Positions 151 to 38,304 of a stretch of DNA of 38,311 bases are shown in pieces. The position numbers and the translations under genes are program-made. The notes beneath the pieces are model-generated. The model ran no database searches, was not told the origin of the DNA, and saw nothing but the letters and a program-made list of their open reading frames with translations. The first letter of the stretch is position 1; the number at the start of each line of letters is the position of its first letter. The stretch comes from a virus, in IMG/VR virus record IMGVR_UViG_3300024261_000081, positions 1 through 38,311 of that record. One strand, 5' to 3'.

Positions 151-349
151 CCTTTACTGGTGTTTCGTGATATGAACCATCGTCATCATACCACCCATGA
201 TACGTAGTGTCAACAACTTTTCGCCTTGTAATTACGAAAGGATTATCTTTTGTTCCTTGACCCTCAACATTTCCGTAAGAATATTTTACTGGTGAAAAGA
301 ATTCATCCATAAAACTTCGGGGAGTCCAATCGCTATAGTTTGTTTTCAT
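140..349 (-). CDS. Hypothetical acidic 69-aa early protein
   Basis: A 69-residue soluble protein rich in Asp, Tyr and Thr, with no membrane segment and no motif I recognise. Its stop overlaps the start of the Rad52-like gene (ATGA), and its start lies inside the 3' end of the upstream PD-(D/E)XK gene (overlap 333-349). The tight coupling to two recombination genes supports a real gene in the leftward replication block. Function unknown. Confidence 0.7.
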   Translation of the reverse strand: MKTNYSDWTPRSFMDEFFSPVKYSYGNVEGQGTKDNPFVITRRKVVDTTYHGWYDDDGSYHETPVKEKE

Positions 350-674
350 TTTGTTTCCTTATAAAGTGTTTAGCATCTACGACTGCTAACGGTTCTTGCC
401 TGTTACGTTTAATGATAAGCAAGGGTTCGTAGCCCCCTGCATTTGATTGCGCTTGTTTCCAAGCGTCCCACAAATTAAGTCGCTCGACGTTCTTGCACTC
501 GACAGAGTATGGGAATAACTCTCTTGCTTTAGGCGACAGCATAACATCTTCACCTTGTGCGCCCATGCTCCTCGAATGAACATCGTCATCATCCAGTTTG
601 AATATCTCAATTAGCGAGTCCCTTACCCACTGCTGTAACCTTCTCCCTTTTGCTTTTCCTGATGATGTTTTCAT
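333..674 (-). CDS. Putative PD-(D/E)XK nuclease (small phage endonuclease)
   Basis: A 113-aa protein. The basic start with K-G-R-R-L-Q-Q-W-V is followed by G-E-D (around residue 42), then L-S-P-K-A-R, then F-P-Y-S-V-E-C-K-N and a later W-K-Q-A-Q. The acidic D, the E-x-K strand and the trailing Gln match the PD-(D/E)XK core and small phage nucleases of the PDDEXK_15 type. Such proteins may act on recombination or replication intermediates. I chose ATG 674 rather than ATG 680 because relatives usually begin close to the basic segment. Both starts lie inside the 3' end of the helicase gene, an overlap of 68 nt or more. Confidence 0.72.
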   Translation of the reverse strand: MKTSSGKAKGRRLQQWVRDSLIEIFKLDDDDVHSRSMGAQGEDVMLSPKARELFPYSVECKNVERLNLWDAWKQAQSNAGGYEPLLIIKRNRQEPLAVVDAKHFIRKQNENKL

Positions 675-1596
675 TTGCAAATTCTTTTAACCCACCTGTT
701 TCTAGTTTACCCGCAGGGCCACCCTTTGCGGGAGTTGGTAATATGCCTTTAGGATGTAAGCCCTGATTGTAGTAATTCAGTGACGCCATGTCAAGTTTTA
801 AATCCAAGTCCAGTTCCGCACCATCAAAGTGTCTTGCTTTACATAGGCTCATGTAAGCATCCGCATGAGGATCATCATACAGTCTACCCAAGATGATTAC
901 GTTATCGGCCCTGTTAGTTATGTCGGCGCTACCTGCTACACTCCATTTGTCTAACTTATCCTTGACGCTACCGCCCTTGCGAGCGTGGGCAACCAAGATA
1001 ATATGGATGCCTAAGTGTCTGGCTGTATTTGCGATAGACTGAACAACTTGTTTCTGACCATTCCAATCATCACTGTTCAGGCTCATTGTCATCAGCGAAT
1101 CAATCAAGACTATATCAATATCAAGATTGTCTTTTGCATACCGCATGACTGACAGCAATGCTTTAGGCGTGATAGTCCCATGCTGATCATAGAACCATAA
1201 CTTATCCTTTGCCCATTTGGTAAACTCAAGACCCGCATCTATATCGGGTTTGTTCTGGAGCGATGCCTGTCTCCACATTCTAGCCAGTTGAGACTTGGGT
1301 GACATTTCCAGTGAGATTGACAGACATTTCTTTCCCTGATCCATAGCGGATAAGAGTATCTGACTAGCGAATAAAGATTTACCTGCACCATTAATCCCTG
1401 CTAATACTGTAACCTCCTCATCGCGCAGTCTAAACTTGTCATCAAACTGGGACAGCGGTAGTTTGGTTCCCGACATTGCCTCATCGAGATTAAAAAAGTC
1501 AAGAGTTTCCTGAGTAAAATCATTTGATGGTCTTATCTTGCGCTCAACGGCAGTTAAGTTTTCGTATTTTTTGAGGTCATCGTTCGTGATTTCCAT
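607..1596 (-). CDS. DnaB/RepA-type RecA-fold replicative helicase or ATPase
   Basis: A 329-aa protein. Walker A is G-I-N-G-A-G-K-S (67-74), followed by S-L-E-M (95-98) typical of DnaB-like ATPases. Walker B is D-I-V-L-I-D-S-L (161-168), followed by L-V-A-H-A-R-K (201-207) and a D-x-x-N-R-A-D-N sensor segment (225-232). It is shorter than host DnaB (about 470 aa) and lacks the N-terminal primase-interaction domain, like many phage RepA/DnaB-C helicases. It probably unwinds DNA for host polymerase, since no phage polymerase is present. Its start overlaps the 3' end of the upstream 142-aa ORF by 43 nt. Confidence 0.88.
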   Translation of the reverse strand: MEITNDDLKKYENLTAVERKIRPSNDFTQETLDFFNLDEAMSGTKLPLSQFDDKFRLRDEEVTVLAGINGAGKSLFASQILLSAMDQGKKCLSISLEMSPKSQLARMWRQASLQNKPDIDAGLEFTKWAKDKLWFYDQHGTITPKALLSVMRYAKDNLDIDIVLIDSLMTMSLNSDDWNGQKQVVQSIANTARHLGIHIILVAHARKGGSVKDKLDKWSVAGSADITNRADNVIILGRLYDDPHADAYMSLCKARHFDGAELDLDLKLDMASLNYYNQGLHPKGILPTPAKGGPAGKLETGGLKEFANENIIRKSKREKVTAVGKGLAN

Positions 1597-4485: not shown

Positions 4486-5070
4486 CTATTTTACCGCCTC
4501 GATTATGACGTTGGTTCCATTGTGCTTGTAACACATGAGGCAATCTATACATTTTCTACCAGTGCAGTTTTGTTTAATCCCTGAATCCTTATTTACGTTA
4601 TTGAATACCTTGTCAAATCCCCTTGGTACGCCAATTACTTTATCAATTCGAGGATTAGAAAAGATCAAAATCAGATTAACTGGAACGTCTGATATTTGAC
4701 GCACAATTGACGCGCGTTTAGTCCAAAGGGTAAAAGTACAATGCGGGTTTTTCTTCGCAATATTAATGATGTTCTTGTAATGATTTAGGTTTATCAATTC
4801 CCCATGGCCATTAAATCTAAAAAATGCCTGATTAATTATTGGCAACAAATCCCAGTCGATTAAATCTTTCATTAATTTGCTGTTATGCTGAAAGGCGGGG
4901 ACACATGATTTTCTAAACGTGGTTAACATCTTGTGAGAATAACATTTTCCGCAAATGGTATCGGTAGACTTTTGCCGAATGCAAAAATCATTCGTGGTGG
5001 TATCGGTATTGATAGCGCCAATTCCCTGAAGTTTACCGCTCATTTTGCTTATTTTAATCTGTTGGATCAT
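4486..5070 (-). CDS. Cysteine-rich GP88-like phage protein
   Basis: A 194-aa protein with nine cysteines (30, 40, 43, 56, 111, 169, 174, 177, 180), including C-G-K-C-Y-S (40-45) and a C-terminal C-x4-C-x2-C-x2-C-Y cluster. The centre, F-R-F-N-G-H-G-E-L-I-N (84-94) followed by T-L-W-T-K-R (114-119), matches the layout of phage GP88-like proteins, which may have a radical-SAM-like barrel. The cysteines probably bind an Fe-S cluster or zinc. Reaction unknown. It is the last gene of its operon and is preceded by a duplicated hairpin leader and an AAAGGAATAAAACA ribosome-binding site. Confidence 0.6.
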   Translation of the reverse strand: MIQQIKISKMSGKLQGIGAINTDTTTNDFCIRQKSTDTICGKCYSHKMLTTFRKSCVPAFQHNSKLMKDLIDWDLLPIINQAFFRFNGHGELINLNHYKNIINIAKKNPHCTFTLWTKRASIVRQISDVPVNLILIFSNPRIDKVIGVPRGFDKVFNNVNKDSGIKQNCTGRKCIDCLMCYKHNGTNVIIEAVK

Positions 5071-5142
5071 TGTTTTATTCCTTTGTTGTTGTTACCTCAA
5101 AGGCCCGCATATAGCGGGCCATAAAGGTTAATTTAAAAAGGT
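5071..5142 (-). repeat. Duplicated hairpin leader cassette, copy A
   Basis: This intergenic sequence is nearly the same as 5637-5709. On the minus strand it has a perfect 7-bp stem (arms 5102-5108 and 5114-5120), a short T run, GGTAACAACAACAA, and then GGAATAAAACA before the ATG. It forms the 5' leader of the Cys-rich gene. The hairpin with few T residues could be an attenuator, a weak terminator or an RNA-processing site. Confidence 0.8.
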
Positions 5143-5367
5143 TTAGTCTGGCATAACCACGAGCCAGTAATTGCAACGATTGGCATACTCTTTTGCTTTC
5201 GCCAGTTTATCAAAATATTTGTATTCCTCGAATGCGCCATATTGATATTCGCGCAATTCCCAATCCCCCGTTGGATTACGCAAAATAATGAACTCCAATT
5301 CAAAATCTTTGTTTTCGGCGTAGTGATTAAGTCCGCCAGTCGTTTTATAAGTGCTGAATTTAAGCAT
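5143..5367 (-). CDS. Hypothetical 74-aa protein
   Basis: A 74-aa protein rich in Tyr, Glu and Asn, with no membrane segment and no recognised motif. The ribosome-binding site is GAGGAATAAAAAC before the ATG, the same short leader form as its neighbours. It is separated from the Cys-rich gene by hairpin cassette A and lies 5 nt after the upstream gene's stop. Confidence 0.65.
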   Translation of the reverse strand: MLKFSTYKTTGGLNHYAENKDFELEFIILRNPTGDWELREYQYGAFEEYKYFDKLAKAKEYANRCNYWLVVMPD

Positions 5368-5372
5368 TGTTT

Positions 5373-5636
5373 TTATTCCTCGCTAATTCTTTTTCTAATG
5401 GGGTCGGATAATTGCGAATCGGGATGATAATGGCAAATGCGCCATTTGTGATTCAGCAAATCTTTTTTGCTTTCATAATTGTCATAATCCTTTAATTGCT
5501 TTTCAGACAGTGTTTTTTCTAACCACGAATCACTGCAAAGCGGATAACCTTCAATATCTACCTGAATCCCCGCATCAATTAGCAATTGCGTTTGTGCGTT
5601 ATGCGCTTTCAAATATTGACCTTTAAATGAACCCAT
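5373..5636 (-). CDS. Hypothetical 87-aa protein
   Basis: A charged 87-aa protein with two cysteines and no recognised domain. It is translated from an ATG behind hairpin cassette B and GGAATAAAACA. It sits close to the next gene (5 nt), so the two probably share a transcript. Function unknown. Confidence 0.65.
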   Translation of the reverse strand: MGSFKGQYLKAHNAQTQLLIDAGIQVDIEGYPLCSDSWLEKTLSEKQLKDYDNYESKKDLLNHKWRICHYHPDSQLSDPIRKRISEE

Positions 5637-32048: not shown

Positions 32049-32284
32049 TAATAGTAGAGTGGCGTGACATTATAGCAACATCAGGGTGGGAGCAAGAACC
32101 AACTTGCCCCACCTTTTTTAATGTTGGTTGGTTGGTCAGAGAGGATAAGGATGTTATTGTCCTAGCAACCACAAAAGACCTTGATGAATTTACAGGAGAG
32201 TCATCTGATCCTCCTCCTGTTTACTATGGGTTTCATTCTTTTCCTCGTGGAGCCGTTGTTTCTGTTCGGCCTGTTTCATCTTAG
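31964..32284 (+). CDS. Hypothetical 106-aa protein, last gene of the virion operon
   Basis: A soluble 106-aa protein with V-E-W-R-D-I-I-A-T-S-G-W, then V-G-W-L-V-R-E-D-K-D-V-I-V-L-A and H-S-F-P-R-G-A-V, a pattern I recognise from small phage proteins of unknown function. The start overlaps the lipoprotein-like gene by 85 nt, with AGGTGG just upstream. Its 3' end overlaps the oppositely oriented gene ending at 32190 by 95 nt. Confidence 0.65.
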   Translation: MDFNVNLRSTNDSGVDNTKPNETEQKELVIVEWRDIIATSGWEQEPTCPTFFNVGWLVREDKDVIVLATTKDLDEFTGESSDPPPVYYGFHSFPRGAVVSVRPVSS

Positions 32285-32456
32285 CGTAAGTGTCTAGGTT
32301 CATACCTTCTTTACGCAAGAACACTTGCTCCCAAGTTCTCCATATGTTATCACTGCACTGAACTGTTTCGTGTTGGTGAACCCAACACCATCTGGCAAAG
32401 TAATATCTTCTATCCTCTGCCCATTTTTCTTCTTGCTCTTTAGATGGGTTTAACAT
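32190..32456 (-). CDS. Hypothetical 88-aa protein, last gene of the leftward block
   Basis: An 88-aa charged protein with a Trp-rich centre (R-R-Y-Y-F-A-R-W-C-W-V-H) and a Gln/Lys/Glu-rich helical C-terminus. The start overlaps the end of the Mom-like gene by 17 nt. Its final 95 nt are antisense to the last virion gene. No domain recognised. Confidence 0.6.
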   Translation of the reverse strand: MLNPSKEQEEKWAEDRRYYFARWCWVHQHETVQCSDNIWRTWEQVFLRKEGMNLDTYAKMKQAEQKQRLHEEKNETHSKQEEDQMTLL

Positions 32457-33057
32457 TCTTAGGGTACGGTGAAACTTTATATCTTAATGCTTTTCTTGCT
32501 AACTTTTTAAATCTTTTGTCGCCGACAAAATGTACATAGCGATGCTTGATTGATCTAAGTCTATAGCCAACATCGTCACCATGCTCCTCCTCCATTTGTT
32601 TGTAAGTCTTACCTCTGAATGTAGTGTGATGCAGGTGCGGTCTTGACTTTAAATATATTTCTTTTATAGGTTTTGTTTGACCAGTATAGGTAAAGTTAGT
32701 TGCTTGATAGACTATGCCTAAGTGATCCTGCGCTCCGTCTGCATAACTTACTACAATTTTATTGCCTAACTTCTTAAGGGTTTGTCCTACTAACTGGGAT
32801 GCCTCGTTTTTTCTATTGTACTTTAGAACTAATCTATTTAATTCTATAACATCTTTTTTAAACTCTTCGCCGCATACACCCTTGAGCAATGTATGTGATG
32901 GCGGTATACCGTAAGTACATACTCCAACTAACTCTCCATCCTTAAACATACCAAAAGACTTTTGTATTGACGGCATCCTATGAGCATAATGAACGTCAAG
33001 TATTAAAGGCTTAGTGTCTTGATAGTTAATCTGTTCAATTGTGTAGCCTGATTCCAT
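32440..33057 (-). CDS. mom: Mom-like DNA modification protein (GNAT-fold)
   Basis: 205 aa from ATG 33057. A further in-frame ATG at 33165 would lie deep inside the upstream nuclease gene. Conserved stretches of the phage Mom family are visible: H-Y-A-H-R-M-P-S-I-Q-K-S-F-G-M-F-K-D-G-E (about 18-37), C-T-Y-G-I-P-P-S (about 42-49), V-I-E-L-N-R-L-V-L (about 65-73), V-V-S-Y-A-D (about 97-102) and a basic end. The family converts adenine in phage DNA to a bulky N6 derivative that blocks restriction enzymes. Mu's Com activator is not seen. The neighbouring gene is a PD-(D/E)XK nuclease. Confidence 0.82.
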   Translation of the reverse strand: MESGYTIEQINYQDTKPLILDVHYAHRMPSIQKSFGMFKDGELVGVCTYGIPPSHTLLKGVCGEEFKKDVIELNRLVLKYNRKNEASQLVGQTLKKLGNKIVVSYADGAQDHLGIVYQATNFTYTGQTKPIKEIYLKSRPHLHHTTFRGKTYKQMEEEHGDDVGYRLRSIKHRYVHFVGDKRFKKLARKALRYKVSPYPKNVKPI

Positions 33058-33523
33058 CAGTGTTGACTGTTCCGCAGGAATAATCTCGAAGATATTGTGT
33101 TGGTATTTTTGCAAACAAATCATCTCTTCCATTCCTTGTTTTAAGTTTAAAGAAGTCATCCTCATCTACACTGCATTTTAACTTAAGATCATTGTAAATG
33201 TCAACTGGATTTACTAAAATAAAATCATCGTCAGTTTCAAATGCAATCATCCTGTCAACCTTTGTTGGAACACCCCACCCAATATTACCTGCTACATTTT
33301 TAAACTCGTAATAGTGTATTGTAGAATCAACATTTGCATCTTTTCTGTTATTTTTTTTCTTACCTTTTACGTCAATCTTTCCTTCCTTGCAGAGTATATC
33401 CCAGTGTTCATTCCTATCTTCTGATCTTGTTGCTCGTCTGATAAAAGAATCCCCAATCATTTCTATGAATTTGTCTTCAGTAATAAGACCTTTCTCATAA
33501 AAACTTTGCCATTTATTTTTCAT
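33035..33523 (-). CDS. PD-(D/E)XK nuclease-like protein next to the Mom-like gene
   Basis: A 162-aa protein. E39-H-W-D42 followed by K-I-D51-V-K53-G-K-K-K matches the D-x(n)-(D/E)-x-K core of PD-(D/E)XK enzymes; a Tyr/Glu/Phe strand and an N-x-G-W-G-V-P-T segment follow. It could be a Holliday-junction resolvase-like enzyme or a nuclease against host DNA. It overlaps the Mom-like gene by 23 nt, so the two are probably co-translated. Confidence 0.65.
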   Translation of the reverse strand: MKNKWQSFYEKGLITEDKFIEMIGDSFIRRATRSEDRNEHWDILCKEGKIDVKGKKKNNRKDANVDSTIHYYEFKNVAGNIGWGVPTKVDRMIAFETDDDFILVNPVDIYNDLKLKCSVDEDDFFKLKTRNGRDDLFAKIPTQYLRDYSCGTVNTDGIRLHN

Positions 33524-33716
33524 TTATCCAATCCTGTATCCTATCATTTAACTCCTCCTTAGTTTTAACGAACACATTATCAACGTGCATATAAGTTTGC
33601 TCATCAGTGCTTGCTAGAAAGTGCCACCCTTGTGCGGTGTTTGATCTTTCCACCCTGTACTTTCCTACCCTACCCAAGTTAAATGCACTACCCCTACCCC
33701 ATTCAATGCTTGACAT
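33513..33716 (-). CDS. Hypothetical 67-aa protein
   Basis: A 67-aa strand-rich protein (G-K-Y-R-V-E-R, W-H-F-L-A-S-T-D) with a helical C-terminus. It overlaps both neighbours (11-14 nt). No family recognised. Confidence 0.6.
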   Translation of the reverse strand: MSSIEWGRGSAFNLGRVGKYRVERSNTAQGWHFLASTDEQTYMHVDNVFVKTKEELNDRIQDWINEK

Positions 33717-33948
33717 CTGGCCCTCTTGATTCTGGTGTAAACCCTACAACATTATCACCATCATGCTGTCTCAGCATACGCTTTAAAGCCCTCCACATAT
33801 ACTCATGCCCTGCATACTCTGACTGTTGAGCGCAACCCTCAAGTAAAGATTCCATCTCCTCAACGTCAAACAGTTCGTGATCCATGCCGTCTTGGGTTAA
33901 CTCTAGTGCAGAATCAAAATGAAATACAATCATTGCAGGTATACTCAT
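33703..33948 (-). CDS. Hypothetical 81-aa acidic protein
   Basis: An 81-aa acidic, mostly helical protein with a hydrophobic start (I-P-A-M-I-V-F-H-F). It begins inside the stop of the exonuclease gene (4-nt overlap) and overlaps the 67-aa gene. No recognised domain. Confidence 0.6.
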   Translation of the reverse strand: MSIPAMIVFHFDSALELTQDGMDHELFDVEEMESLLEGCAQQSEYAGHEYMWRALKRMLRQHDGDNVVGFTPESRGPDVKH

Positions 33949-34712
33949 TTTATATTTTTTAACCTCTGCTTTAAAGTTTTAGCCGCTAAAAAGGCTTGAA
34001 AGTTTTCTTCGATTTCTGTTGACCTGACCGCTTCAAATTTTCCTGTAGCCTTGTCGCATCTAAGTATGTATGTAGCATCCACTGGAATTCCATGTATATC
34101 TTCGATGGCTTTGGCATATGCCGCAACCTGTAAATAATATTCTGGATAAATTCTTTTACTCGTTTTCCAGTCGATAACACAATATTCCCCATTAATAATA
34201 GCCCTAGCATCAACTGTTCCCGCATATTTATATTTCCTATGATAGATTTTTTCTTCTGATGATTTCCATTCAACTACATTTTCTCCAACCCAATCTTGAA
34301 AAGCATGAATAGCGTTAACAGACTCTTCTTGCTTTGGCATTTCAGGTATGTCACCCTCTGCTATCTTCCAATTAATTGCGGCTTCTACCCACTCATGTGT
34401 AAGGCTACCTATGTTTAAGGCATCTCTTGACACCCCCCTGTAAGCGCCCTTCATTCCTTTTAACAATGGCTCTAAAGCCATTCTAGACTTGTACACGTTA
34501 GTCTTTTTAGATGATGCTTCTTGGTCGAAGAAGAAGTTCTTCTCCAACCAATCACCACCCACCTTTAAAGCCCAAGGTACAAGAGCAGGTTTGGAGATGA
34601 TGTCTAATATTTTAGTAGCATTAGGCACCACCTCTTTACCAACCTTGTATGAATGAAGTTTGCTATCGAATAACATCTCAACAACCTCTCCATCATGGTA
34701 CTCTATCTTCAT
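33945..34712 (-). CDS. RecB/Cas4-like PD-(D/E)XK exonuclease
   Basis: A 255-aa protein with the full RecB-family pattern: G-S-L-T-H106-E-W-V-E, then Y-A-G-T-V-D168-A-R, V-I-D181-W-K183-T-S and L-Q195-V-A-A-Y. These are the His, the two Asp, the Lys and the Q-x3-Y of 5'-3' exonucleases of this family. It probably resects DNA ends so that the Rad52-type protein can anneal them, which gives a phage recombination pair. It overlaps the SSB-like gene by one base. Confidence 0.85.
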   Translation of the reverse strand: MKIEYHDGEVVEMLFDSKLHSYKVGKEVVPNATKILDIISKPALVPWALKVGGDWLEKNFFFDQEASSKKTNVYKSRMALEPLLKGMKGAYRGVSRDALNIGSLTHEWVEAAINWKIAEGDIPEMPKQEESVNAIHAFQDWVGENVVEWKSSEEKIYHRKYKYAGTVDARAIINGEYCVIDWKTSKRIYPEYYLQVAAYAKAIEDIHGIPVDATYILRCDKATGKFEAVRSTEIEENFQAFLAAKTLKQRLKNIK

Positions 34713-34948
34713 TAGAAAGGAACTTCTGTTGAAGAAGATTTACTGGCGTTAGATTTACCAGACCCATTCATGGGTGGTTCCATCCTACCAGAGAAACGAA
34801 GTTTACCAGACTCTTTAGCCCACAAAGATACACGCATCTTGGTTCCGTCAATAAGAGCATACCCTGTAATATCTGGGCGGTTCTCATTACCTTCCTTATC
34901 GTTTATAAACAGCGATACATCTCCATCTTTTTCTTGATAATCACTCAT
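34712..34948 (-). CDS. Small SSB-like protein (78 aa)
   Basis: A 78-aa protein. A strand-rich core (Y-A-L-I-D-G-T-K-M-R-V-S-L-W-A-K, then L-R-F-S-G-R-M-E-P-P) is followed by a Ser-rich tail ending E-V-P-F, similar to the acidic x-I-P-F tip by which single-stranded DNA-binding proteins recruit partners. Position between recombination genes supports a single-strand-binding role. The core is too short for a full OB fold, so this remains tentative. Confidence 0.5.
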   Translation of the reverse strand: MSDYQEKDGDVSLFINDKEGNENRPDITGYALIDGTKMRVSLWAKESGKLRFSGRMEPPMNGSGKSNASKSSSTEVPF

Positions 34949-35940: not shown

Positions 35941-36230
35941 CATCTAAACCCTACTGGATTAGAATCCCAATCATGGTTAGGTGCAAGTTCAGGGCATATC
36001 CCACCCATTTCTTCCCAATCATCATCGTCGTCATCGTCGTCATCGTCGTCATCCTCTATACTTTCCCACCTGTCTTTTTGCATCTCATCACGTTCATCTT
36101 CTATATCTTTTTTAAAATCTTCTAACCTTTTCAAGGTTATGTTTTGTTTATCAATGCGAAAGGAATCAATAATATCATTAATTTCATTTGCATAATAATC
36201 AAGCGTCTCTTCAAACCCTTTAGTATTCAT
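35940..36230 (-). CDS. Hypothetical protein with 12-Asp tract (96 aa)
   Basis: Start set at ATG 36230, which overlaps the ribonucleotide reductase stop (ATGA); a longer frame to 36254 lies inside that gene. The N-terminal part is helical and charged, and a run of 12 Asp (codons 36018-36053, a GAT/GAC repeat) lies near residue 70, followed by W-E-E-M-G-G-I. The acidic tract could mimic DNA or bind basic proteins. No family recognised. Confidence 0.6.
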   Translation of the reverse strand: MNTKGFEETLDYYANEINDIIDSFRIDKQNITLKRLEDFKKDIEDERDEMQKDRWESIEDDDDDDDDDDDDWEEMGGICPELAPNHDWDSNPVGFR

Positions 36231-37855
36231 ATTCCACACACTCCTGATAAGCATTGCTCTTCTGAATTATCCTCGTAGATCACACCACGTTTAGCGTTAG
36301 CCTCCTCATAAGGTACAGATGTTATAGGTTGCCCACCCCTAGCGCTATCTGGGTACACTGTTAAACCTCTTAACCCACTGGCGTAATCACTAATGATTTT
36401 GGCAAACGACTTTATCTTATCCTCATTGTTAAGATCACTTCCCCATGCGGGAAGGTTTAGCGTGGAACTAATAGCGTGGTCTACATACTTCTGCAACCCA
36501 TGTTGAAATTTAATTCTACGTTCTGGATCAGCGGCAAGATCAACAGCAGATTCAATTTTATCTGGGTCAATACCAGAATCAATTAATCCTTGCGCTGTAC
36601 CGTCAACGACAAACTGATGTTTCCATTTTGTTCCATCCGAAAGGTAACGTCTGCGGTATGCGACTGCGTATATTGGTTCCACCCCAGAAGTAGTCCCTGC
36701 GAGGATAGAGATTGTTCCTGTTGGAGCAATTGCTCTGTAGCCTTTAGGACGGTTGAGAAAAAGTCTGTCGCAGTGTTCGTCTGCCGCTTTTTTACTTTCT
36801 GTTTCATAAACTTTCATCCATTGTTTCAGTTCATCTACCATCTCATATTTGTATCCACGTTTCAGCAACCACTCGTGCATACCCATCAACCCTAAACCAA
36901 TACGACTATTCTTCTGCCTTGTCTCGCTTACTTTTTCGTAGGGAACTTGCGCCCTGATAAGCCCACAAACAAGGAACTTACTAGCAACAGTAACAACATC
37001 CCGAAACTCATCAATGCTGTCAATGTTAGCCATATTAATAGACCCAAGATTACAAACGTCGCTATCATCTTCGCTAGTAATTTCTGTGCAAGCGTTACGA
37101 AGAGTTTCATTTTGTTTGTCTCCAAAATTAAATGAGAATCCGGGCTCTCCTGTCATCAATGCCTGAGTTACATTCTTTAAAAACGTAGGATCAAGGTGTC
37201 GTTTGTCAGCGTTTAGCCATGCGTCATCGTAATTCAAACTGATGTTCATCATATCCAGAGGAGCATGAGCATTGAAGTCTTTTTCTTTTGCCGATTTTAC
37301 TTCATCACTCCAGTTCTTGATGGTCAAAAAGTCGTGAGAATCTTCATGCTTCCAGTTCATGCAACCATACATAGCACTGCGTCTGCTACCACCCTGCATT
37401 ACGTTGCGTCCAATCTCATTGGTTGCAAGTAAGAAAGGAATCGGCCCACTACTAACGCCACCTGTCTTGGATAGCGTTCTACCTTTAGGTCTAAAGTTTG
37501 TAACATCCATTCCAATACCGCCACCTGTCATCAAACATGACCCTGCACGTTTCCAAAGGTCTGCCCATTCTTCCCTGCTATCTTCCTCTGCTTTAAGCAG
37601 GTAACAATTATTATAGAACCTTGCCTCTCTACCTGCATACCACAAGTAGCGACCTCCGGGCAAGAATTTAAAGTTCGCAATGTCTTGGGCAAGTTTATCC
37701 TGATCTGATTTATCCATCAGATTATTTTTCTTACCATCCATAGTGCCACATACACTGTTGACTACATTGTGCGCCTTGTCACTCCAAGTTTCATACGCAT
37801 TGCTTGCATACTTCTGTTTAAAAATTGTCTCGCCTAGTTCGGTTCTAAATTTCAT
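36227..37855 (-). CDS. nrdJ: Class II (B12-dependent) ribonucleotide reductase
   Basis: A 542-aa single-chain enzyme that makes deoxynucleotides for phage replication. The active-site strand is N254-A-C256-T-E258, with redox cysteines C84 and C268 (C-N-L-G-S-I-N) and a C-terminal C535-x4-C540 that recharges them. P-T-G-T-I-S and T-S-G-V-E-P-I are present. No ATP-cone or small-subunit gene is seen, which fits adenosylcobalamin-dependent class II enzymes. It requires host cobalamin. It is coupled to its downstream neighbour by ATGA and overlaps the Rad52-like gene stop by 4 nt. Confidence 0.93.
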   Translation of the reverse strand: MKFRTELGETIFKQKYASNAYETWSDKAHNVVNSVCGTMDGKKNNLMDKSDQDKLAQDIANFKFLPGGRYLWYAGREARFYNNCYLLKAEEDSREEWADLWKRAGSCLMTGGGIGMDVTNFRPKGRTLSKTGGVSSGPIPFLLATNEIGRNVMQGGSRRSAMYGCMNWKHEDSHDFLTIKNWSDEVKSAKEKDFNAHAPLDMMNISLNYDDAWLNADKRHLDPTFLKNVTQALMTGEPGFSFNFGDKQNETLRNACTEITSEDDSDVCNLGSINMANIDSIDEFRDVVTVASKFLVCGLIRAQVPYEKVSETRQKNSRIGLGLMGMHEWLLKRGYKYEMVDELKQWMKVYETESKKAADEHCDRLFLNRPKGYRAIAPTGTISILAGTTSGVEPIYAVAYRRRYLSDGTKWKHQFVVDGTAQGLIDSGIDPDKIESAVDLAADPERRIKFQHGLQKYVDHAISSTLNLPAWGSDLNNEDKIKSFAKIISDYASGLRGLTVYPDSARGGQPITSVPYEEANAKRGVIYEDNSEEQCLSGVCGI

Positions 37856-38304
37856 AGTGATGCCTCATATTCTTTACGCCATTTCTCAATCTCTTTACCA
37901 TGCCTTTCTTCCATAAGTTTGTCATAACCTTCTGGCGTAGCCCATGATGCAGGGTTTCTGTTTGAATCAAACGCTGAAGGGTAGTACAAGTACCGCCCGA
38001 TACCCCACAATACACCCGCTCGTTTGAGTGCATCACTGATACCGCCCTTGTCACCCTCGATATTAGTGTCACCCGCCCCATCAGATTTAGTAACCCATTT
38101 GTCACCTATAAGGCAAGACAGTTTACAAATCATCCTGCCTCCGATATGCTCGTAGTGCGCCTGCCACCCGCCAACATCAAAGACCTCATCAAGTCTGTTC
38201 ATTACCTGACGCGCATCAATGTAAACCAACTCTTTACCACCCGCACCTTTACGCCAGTGATGACTTGCAAAAGGTTTCTTTAACTCTATCTGTATATGTT
38301 TCAT
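37852..38304 (-). CDS. Rad52-family single-strand annealing protein
   Basis: A 150-aa protein. Y-I-D-A-R-Q-V-M-N-R-L-D-E-V-F (28-42), G-G-W (45-47), K-S-D-G-A-G-D-T (73-80) and G-G-I-S-D-A-L-K-R-A-G-V-L-W-G-I-G-R-Y (87-105) are the core of Rad52/Sak-type annealing proteins. It would anneal single strands exposed by the RecB-like exonuclease. The complete gene ends at 38304; the first 143 nt recur at the left end of the window. It overlaps the ribonucleotide reductase start. Confidence 0.9.
   Translation of the reverse strand: MKHIQIELKKPFASHHWRKGAGGKELVYIDARQVMNRLDEVFDVGGWQAHYEHIGGRMICKLSCLIGDKWVTKSDGAGDTNIEGDKGGISDALKRAGVLWGIGRYLYYPSAFDSNRNPASWATPEGYDKLMEERHGKEIEKWRKEYEASL

Follow-up and report, generated by a model that had tools for sequence, protein, structure and literature searches.

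The window analysed here, all 38,311 bp of IMG/VR virus record IMGVR_UViG_3300024261_000081, carries a gene of the Mom family that overlaps a gene for a predicted 162-aa PD-(D/E)XK nuclease (hereafter NUC), and the pair lies at a junction where related phages exchange nuclease genes. The best explanation, which we hold with moderate confidence, is that Mom is an acquired anti-restriction gene, that NUC is a nuclease independent of Mom, and that the two are neighbours in a swap slot. On the same reading, the phages concerned are a group of uncultured marine tailed phages whose nuclease slot is hypervariable, and the window shows that slot in one of its states.

Results

Gene layout

The features needed for the argument are listed below.

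32190–32456, minus strand: gene for an 88-aa protein (MLNPSKEQ), the slot's downstream flank; homologues flank the slot in sister phages
32440–33123, minus strand: Mom-like gene, putatively for DNA adenine modification; translation probably starts at 33123 (227 aa), reading frame open to 33165
33035–33523, minus strand: NUC, predicted 162-aa PD-(D/E)XK nuclease whose family is absent from Pfam and PHROG
33035–33123, minus strand: probable 89-nt overlap of the NUC 3' end and the Mom 5' end, dual coding, as indicated by polymorphism
33133–33137, minus strand: AAGGA, a ribosome-binding-like site for Mom, within NUC; relative L025 has GGGAGG before the same ATG
33513–33948, minus strand: genes for 67-aa and 81-aa proteins, the slot's upstream flank; order kept in sister phages
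33945–34712, minus strand: PD-(D/E)XK exonuclease (phrog_298) that serves the phage's own recombination (PHROG 298, 1.9e-33)
34712–34948, minus strand: SSB-like protein (phrog_18154, 1.9e-5)
36227–37855, minus strand: ribonucleotide reductase (Pfam PF02867, 9.8e-51)
37852–38304, minus strand: ERF/Rad52-type annealing protein (Pfam, 7e-18; PHROG 1097, 2.9e-35)

The Mom gene and its overlap with NUC

The gene had been called Mom-like from its sequence, and database searches confirm it. The protein matches Pfam PF25680 along profile positions 2–202 of 202 (E = 2.7e-36; 125.6 bits against a cut-off of 27.1), PHROG 1384 (3.2e-52) and the crystal structure of phage Mu Mom (PDB 8bv8, 7.6e-8), and it keeps all invariant columns of a 16-member Mom alignment. 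It is ~27% identical to Mu Mom. Among the invariant columns are its residues H59, Y60, E108, S123 and Y153, which correspond to H48, Y49, E98, S114 and Y149 of the Mu protein. By sequence comparison, then, the product of 32440–33123 is a real member of the Mom family. Another match, to PHROG 3339 (annotated as homing endonuclease), covers profile positions 365–502 of 536 and suggests that an association of Mom with a nuclease recurs with different nucleases. Separately, we noted a Mom-like protein at L027:3419–4312 with an insertion of ~80–100 aa between the core and a C-terminal KHRY motif.

In phage Mu, Mom modifies phage adenines and protects against host restriction enzymes. By analogy, the Mom of the window may modify adenines of the phage DNA and thereby confer resistance to host restriction. 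Its regulation probably differs from that in Mu, in that Com is lacking and translation probably begins inside NUC; unlike in Mu, the gene follows a nuclease in a replication operon. The sequence-only reading had seen neither Com nor Dam, and our searches agree: Com (PF10122) was not detected in the window by a search that finds it in phage Mu, and the three methyltransferase families searched (Dam, N6/N4 and C5) have no member in the window. Since Dam is a host function in the Mu system, its absence from the phage says little. A candidate promoter for Mom inside NUC (33204–33175, minus strand; TTGACA-18-TAAAAT, 11 of 12 matches) is not claimed, because the scan total equalled chance and the hexamers, compared by eye, are not kept in L025.

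That the two genes overlap on the same strand stood up to scrutiny; the length of 23 nt given earlier probably did not. It presupposes a Mom start at 33057, and L025, the nearest separate relative (Mom 85–87% and NUC ~61% identical to the window), has no ATG there. An ATG at 33123, by contrast, is common to both, preceded by AAGGA 9 nt upstream in the window and by GGGAGG 6 nt upstream in L025. Among 12 near-identical contigs, 2 of 89 sites were polymorphic in the interval 33035–33123, compared with 33 of 358 in the part that codes for NUC alone. For NUC, no third position varied in the overlap (0/30, against 22/119 outside; Fisher P = 0.008), and for Mom one did (1/29, against 42/199; P = 0.02). 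Such a lowering of polymorphism through the overlap is as dual coding predicts, and the overlap is thus probably 33035–33123, that is, 89 nt.

The same contigs show that both genes are maintained. Polymorphism was concentrated at third positions in the Mom-only part (42/199 versus 8/396 at other positions) and in the NUC-only part (22/119 versus 11/239), and each gene is under purifying selection.

NUC as a PD-(D/E)XK nuclease

The NUC sequence itself found no match in Pfam, PHROG, PDB or PADLOC, nor by tblastn in 50,697 phage records. A profile search recovered 121 relatives in viral contigs, and 88 of a second subfamily were found, for more than 200 viral matches altogether; the family is widespread in marine phages and has no Pfam or PHROGs entry. 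Across 48 relatives, E16, H40, D42, D51-V-K53, K56, R60, E73, W83, R130 and R133 are invariant, and E16, D42 and D51-V-K53, which are also aligned in the bacterial members, make up the PD-(D/E)XK residues. An AlphaFold model built from the 48 sequences is confident (pLDDT 91.8, pTM 0.87). Its best PDB matches, at weak E-values (0.045–1, the best 0.045), are mostly PD-(D/E)XK proteins: SPARDA nuclease complexes, RecU, I-Ssp6803I and Hjc, and also MepB. The earlier description of the neighbour as nuclease-like is therefore upheld, and its assignment as a PD-(D/E)XK nuclease is strong by motif, with some support from the predicted fold.

The usual neighbourhood of NUC

Neighbour scans, whose family counts are lower bounds, placed a ribonucleotide reductase near at least 40 of 47 distinct NUC loci, DUF3310 near at least 38, MazG near at least 26 and a homologue of T7 endonuclease I near at least 22. 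Members of the second subfamily are flanked by DNA polymerase A and an SSB, or are followed by a PD-(D/E)XK exonuclease. This company points to DNA metabolism, for example breakdown of host DNA or processing of replication intermediates; for host-DNA breakdown, the gene neighbourhood is the evidence. NUC resembles T7 endonuclease I (gp3) in being a small PD-(D/E)XK endonuclease of the polymerase/SSB region, and a similar job is plausible for it, but the two have no detectable sequence relation and co-occur instead of replacing each other.

NUC might instead be the phage's Holliday-junction resolvase, placed beside Mom by chance. The weak fold matches to RecU and Hjc and the nearby recombination module (ERF, exonuclease, SSB) would fit such a role. 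Yet none of the 48 NUC members has a sequence match to a resolvase in Pfam, PHROG or PDB, sister phages replace NUC by nucleases with no detectable sequence relation to it, and the co-occurrence with T7 endonuclease I argues against NUC as the resolvase in those phages. No T7 endonuclease I was found in the window; it does encode a separate 115-aa protein with a nuclease-like D...ExK motif. The resolvase alternative raised by the sequence-only reading is weakened accordingly, and we regard it as very improbable.

The 115-aa protein (333–680, minus strand; motif SVECKN) is itself a possible resolvase. A PDB sequence search with it gave no match, and it is 62% identical to a protein of L039 placed in the same module.

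How often NUC and Mom go together

Outside the window species, Mom lies near NUC at 1 of 68 NUC loci whose flanks were examined, L025 alone; many of these contigs are short fragments, and absence from flanks of ≤5 kb is weaker than absence from whole records. In whole NUC-bearing records of 18–46 kb, Mom was absent from 20 of 20. For the second subfamily (66 distinct members among those kept), Mom occurs solely in L308 and L309, which represent one phage type. The reverse check agreed: NUC is present at 1 of 78 Mom loci (L155) and in 1 of 16 whole Mom records outside the window lineage, again of the L155 type. Among the NUC loci examined, the genes are thus linked in the window lineage and in L025 alone, and they are unlinked in one other phage type. 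In most phages NUC is retained in the absence of Mom, which it does not generally need.

The unlinked case is L155, whose contig is L309. This different phage type has a NUC-family nuclease between its DNA polymerase and SSB, plus a Mom (732–1262 and 4998–5555); the two lie 3.7 kb apart on opposite strands.

A general enrichment of nucleases beside Mom was considered and rejected, the neighbours of Mom being mixed across 78 viral loci. PD-(D/E)XK-type proteins made up at least 6 of 149 adjacent genes and at least 2 of 148 genes four to five positions off (Fisher P = 0.28), and all nucleases together at least 10 of 149 versus at least 4 of 148, again not significant. One adjacent case is Roseobacter phage CRP-902 (L108), where, as in the window, Mom directly follows a nuclease gene with an overlap (4 nt); that nuclease, unlike NUC, is annotated as belonging to another family (VRR) and lies downstream of a DNA helicase.

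A nuclease-swap slot in sister phages

Sister phages, recovered by searching with the neighbouring exonuclease, keep the gene order exonuclease, 81 aa, 67 aa, slot, 88 aa, and the contents of the slot vary. It holds NUC and Mom in 12 contigs of the window's own lineage and in L025; NUC and a 55-aa gene, with no trace of Mom, in L038, L039 and L040; HNH, NUC and the 55-aa gene in L269; and HNH and/or other small E...D...(D/E)xK proteins in 36 others. Slot protein c0 is HNH_2 (1.5e-5), and models of c1 and c2 match the type II restriction enzymes Eco15I (8.3e-5), NhoI, EcoRV and DpnI. Homology between NUC and the slot nucleases c1, c2 and c4 was rejected, as profile comparison was not significant. 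The long sister records lack Mom, and a search of the longest for Dam, N6/N4 and C5 methyltransferases gave no match. A different Mom occurs in one sister, close to the start of the contig and away from the slot; there HNH occupies the slot, and the stretch examined has no NUC. The junction is a hypervariable nuclease-swap slot. Across L200–L272, nucleases (HNH and several of the small PD-(D/E)XK-like kind) were seen to replace one another between the 67/81-aa and 88-aa genes on near-identical backbones.

In a tree of the flanking exonuclease, NUC with Mom appears in two places kept apart by strongly supported branches, which forces two changes: the window species falls beside L207/L209, and L025 beside L221/L232. 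The exonucleases of L025 and L221 are 98% identical, and their slots differ (NUC and Mom versus HNH and c2). The presence of the pair on two separate backbones implies that the two genes were transferred, or lost, together. A lineage-specific functional pair would fit such behaviour, though overlapping neighbours would co-transfer anyway.

The slot could also reflect nuclease-driven exchange, in which free-standing homing-type HNH or PD-(D/E)XK enzymes cut co-infecting relatives at the matching site and propagate the block that carries them, with Mom as a hitchhiker. In its favour, a single junction with constant flanking genes accommodates many different nuclease blocks, near-identical backbones such as those of L025 and L221 carry different ones, and the PD-(D/E)XK homing enzyme I-Ssp6803I is among the weak fold matches of NUC. 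Phage homing nucleases are known to cause interference (PMC11620839). Outside this group, however, the neighbours of NUC are stable (ribonucleotide reductase, DUF3310, polymerase, SSB), unlike those of scattered homing genes, and we consider exchange by homing distinctly improbable.

NUC in bacteria

NUC is rare in bacteria, being found in 1 of 369 Gammaproteobacteria genomes sampled. In L283 (Thiotrichaceae; L283:4920–8700), the NUC gene is followed, after 8 bp, by one that encodes an adenine methyltransferase of Eco57I type (1,088 aa; Pfam 2.4e-40; PADLOC type IIG 6e-143). This single case gives a hint that NUC may serve as the cutting half of a small restriction-modification pair. The likeness to Type II and IIG systems extends to the slot alternatives that fold like Eco15I, NhoI and EcoRV. 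Unlike such systems, the window has none of the three methyltransferase families, Mom is not a methyltransferase, and NUC usually has no modification gene with it.

NUC homologues also occur on Vibrio replicons of 0.88–0.94 Mb (L284:8001–9219, L285:7986–9201 and L286:8001–9219), each overlapping a gene of 236–238 aa, in a region that also has exonuclease, GIY-YIG, ERCC4 and thymidylate synthase genes. The 238-aa partner was considered as a Mom and rejected: it is not Mom and has no Pfam family.

Discussion

The sequence-only reading had suggested that Mom and NUC form a self-protecting pair, and the idea that Mom and a linked restriction-fold nuclease act in this way is already in print. Iyer et al. 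(2021) predicted fusions of Mom to REase-fold nucleases in jumbo phages, with Mom protecting the phage DNA and the linked nuclease attacking (PMC7824862). The window shares with those fusions the link between Mom and a nuclease predicted to have a restriction fold, to which the same logic could apply; it differs in having two separate genes, a nuclease of an unnamed family that mostly occurs without Mom, and a phage record of 38 kb.

Under a restriction-modification-like arrangement, Mom would mark phage adenines and NUC would cut host or competing-phage DNA that lacks the mark, while sparing phage DNA. In favour of this, the genes overlap and were transferred or lost together, both are under selection, the slot elsewhere holds nucleases of restriction-enzyme fold, the bacterial NUC adjoins an adenine methyltransferase, fusions of Mom to REase-fold nucleases are predicted in jumbo phages, and L155 has both NUC and Mom. 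Against it, nearly all NUC relatives persist without Mom, sisters keep restriction-fold nucleases in the slot without Mom and, in the longest records, without a detected methyltransferase, and the sister with a Mom outside the slot has no NUC in the stretch examined. We find such an arrangement unlikely. A related form, a mobile marine-phage cassette in which Mom hypermodification replaces the methyltransferase and NUC does the cutting, and which would be exchanged in a slot used by sister phages to swap nucleases of restriction-enzyme fold against hosts or rival phages, we also judge unlikely. Of the proposed pair, the parts are real and occur together on two backbones; an obligate pairing did not hold. 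The earlier reading had called for a survey of co-occurrence and named freely varying nuclease neighbours as evidence against its idea, and such variation is largely what we saw, the sister slots holding other nucleases and no Mom.

The reading we prefer, independence of the two genes, would work as follows. NUC would be a PD-(D/E)XK endonuclease of a replication and nucleotide-supply module, cutting host DNA, or recombination or replication intermediates, and so feeding phage DNA synthesis without help from Mom. Mom would be an anti-restriction gene, independent of NUC, that arrived next to it in the slot, at the position taken by the 55-aa gene in other relatives with NUC. The overlap and the joint transfer would then result from close packing of genes and recombination of whole blocks. 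Three observations count against independence: NUC and Mom are kept together on two backbones, NUC neighbours a methyltransferase in L283, and the L155/L308 type has both genes.

The window offers a testable case of phages that combine DNA masking with nucleases, and it exposes a slot in which close relatives trade different endonucleases, one of them accompanied by Mom. Should Mom-modified DNA be spared by NUC, the prediction made for jumbo phages would also apply to small ones, in the form of a transferable cassette.
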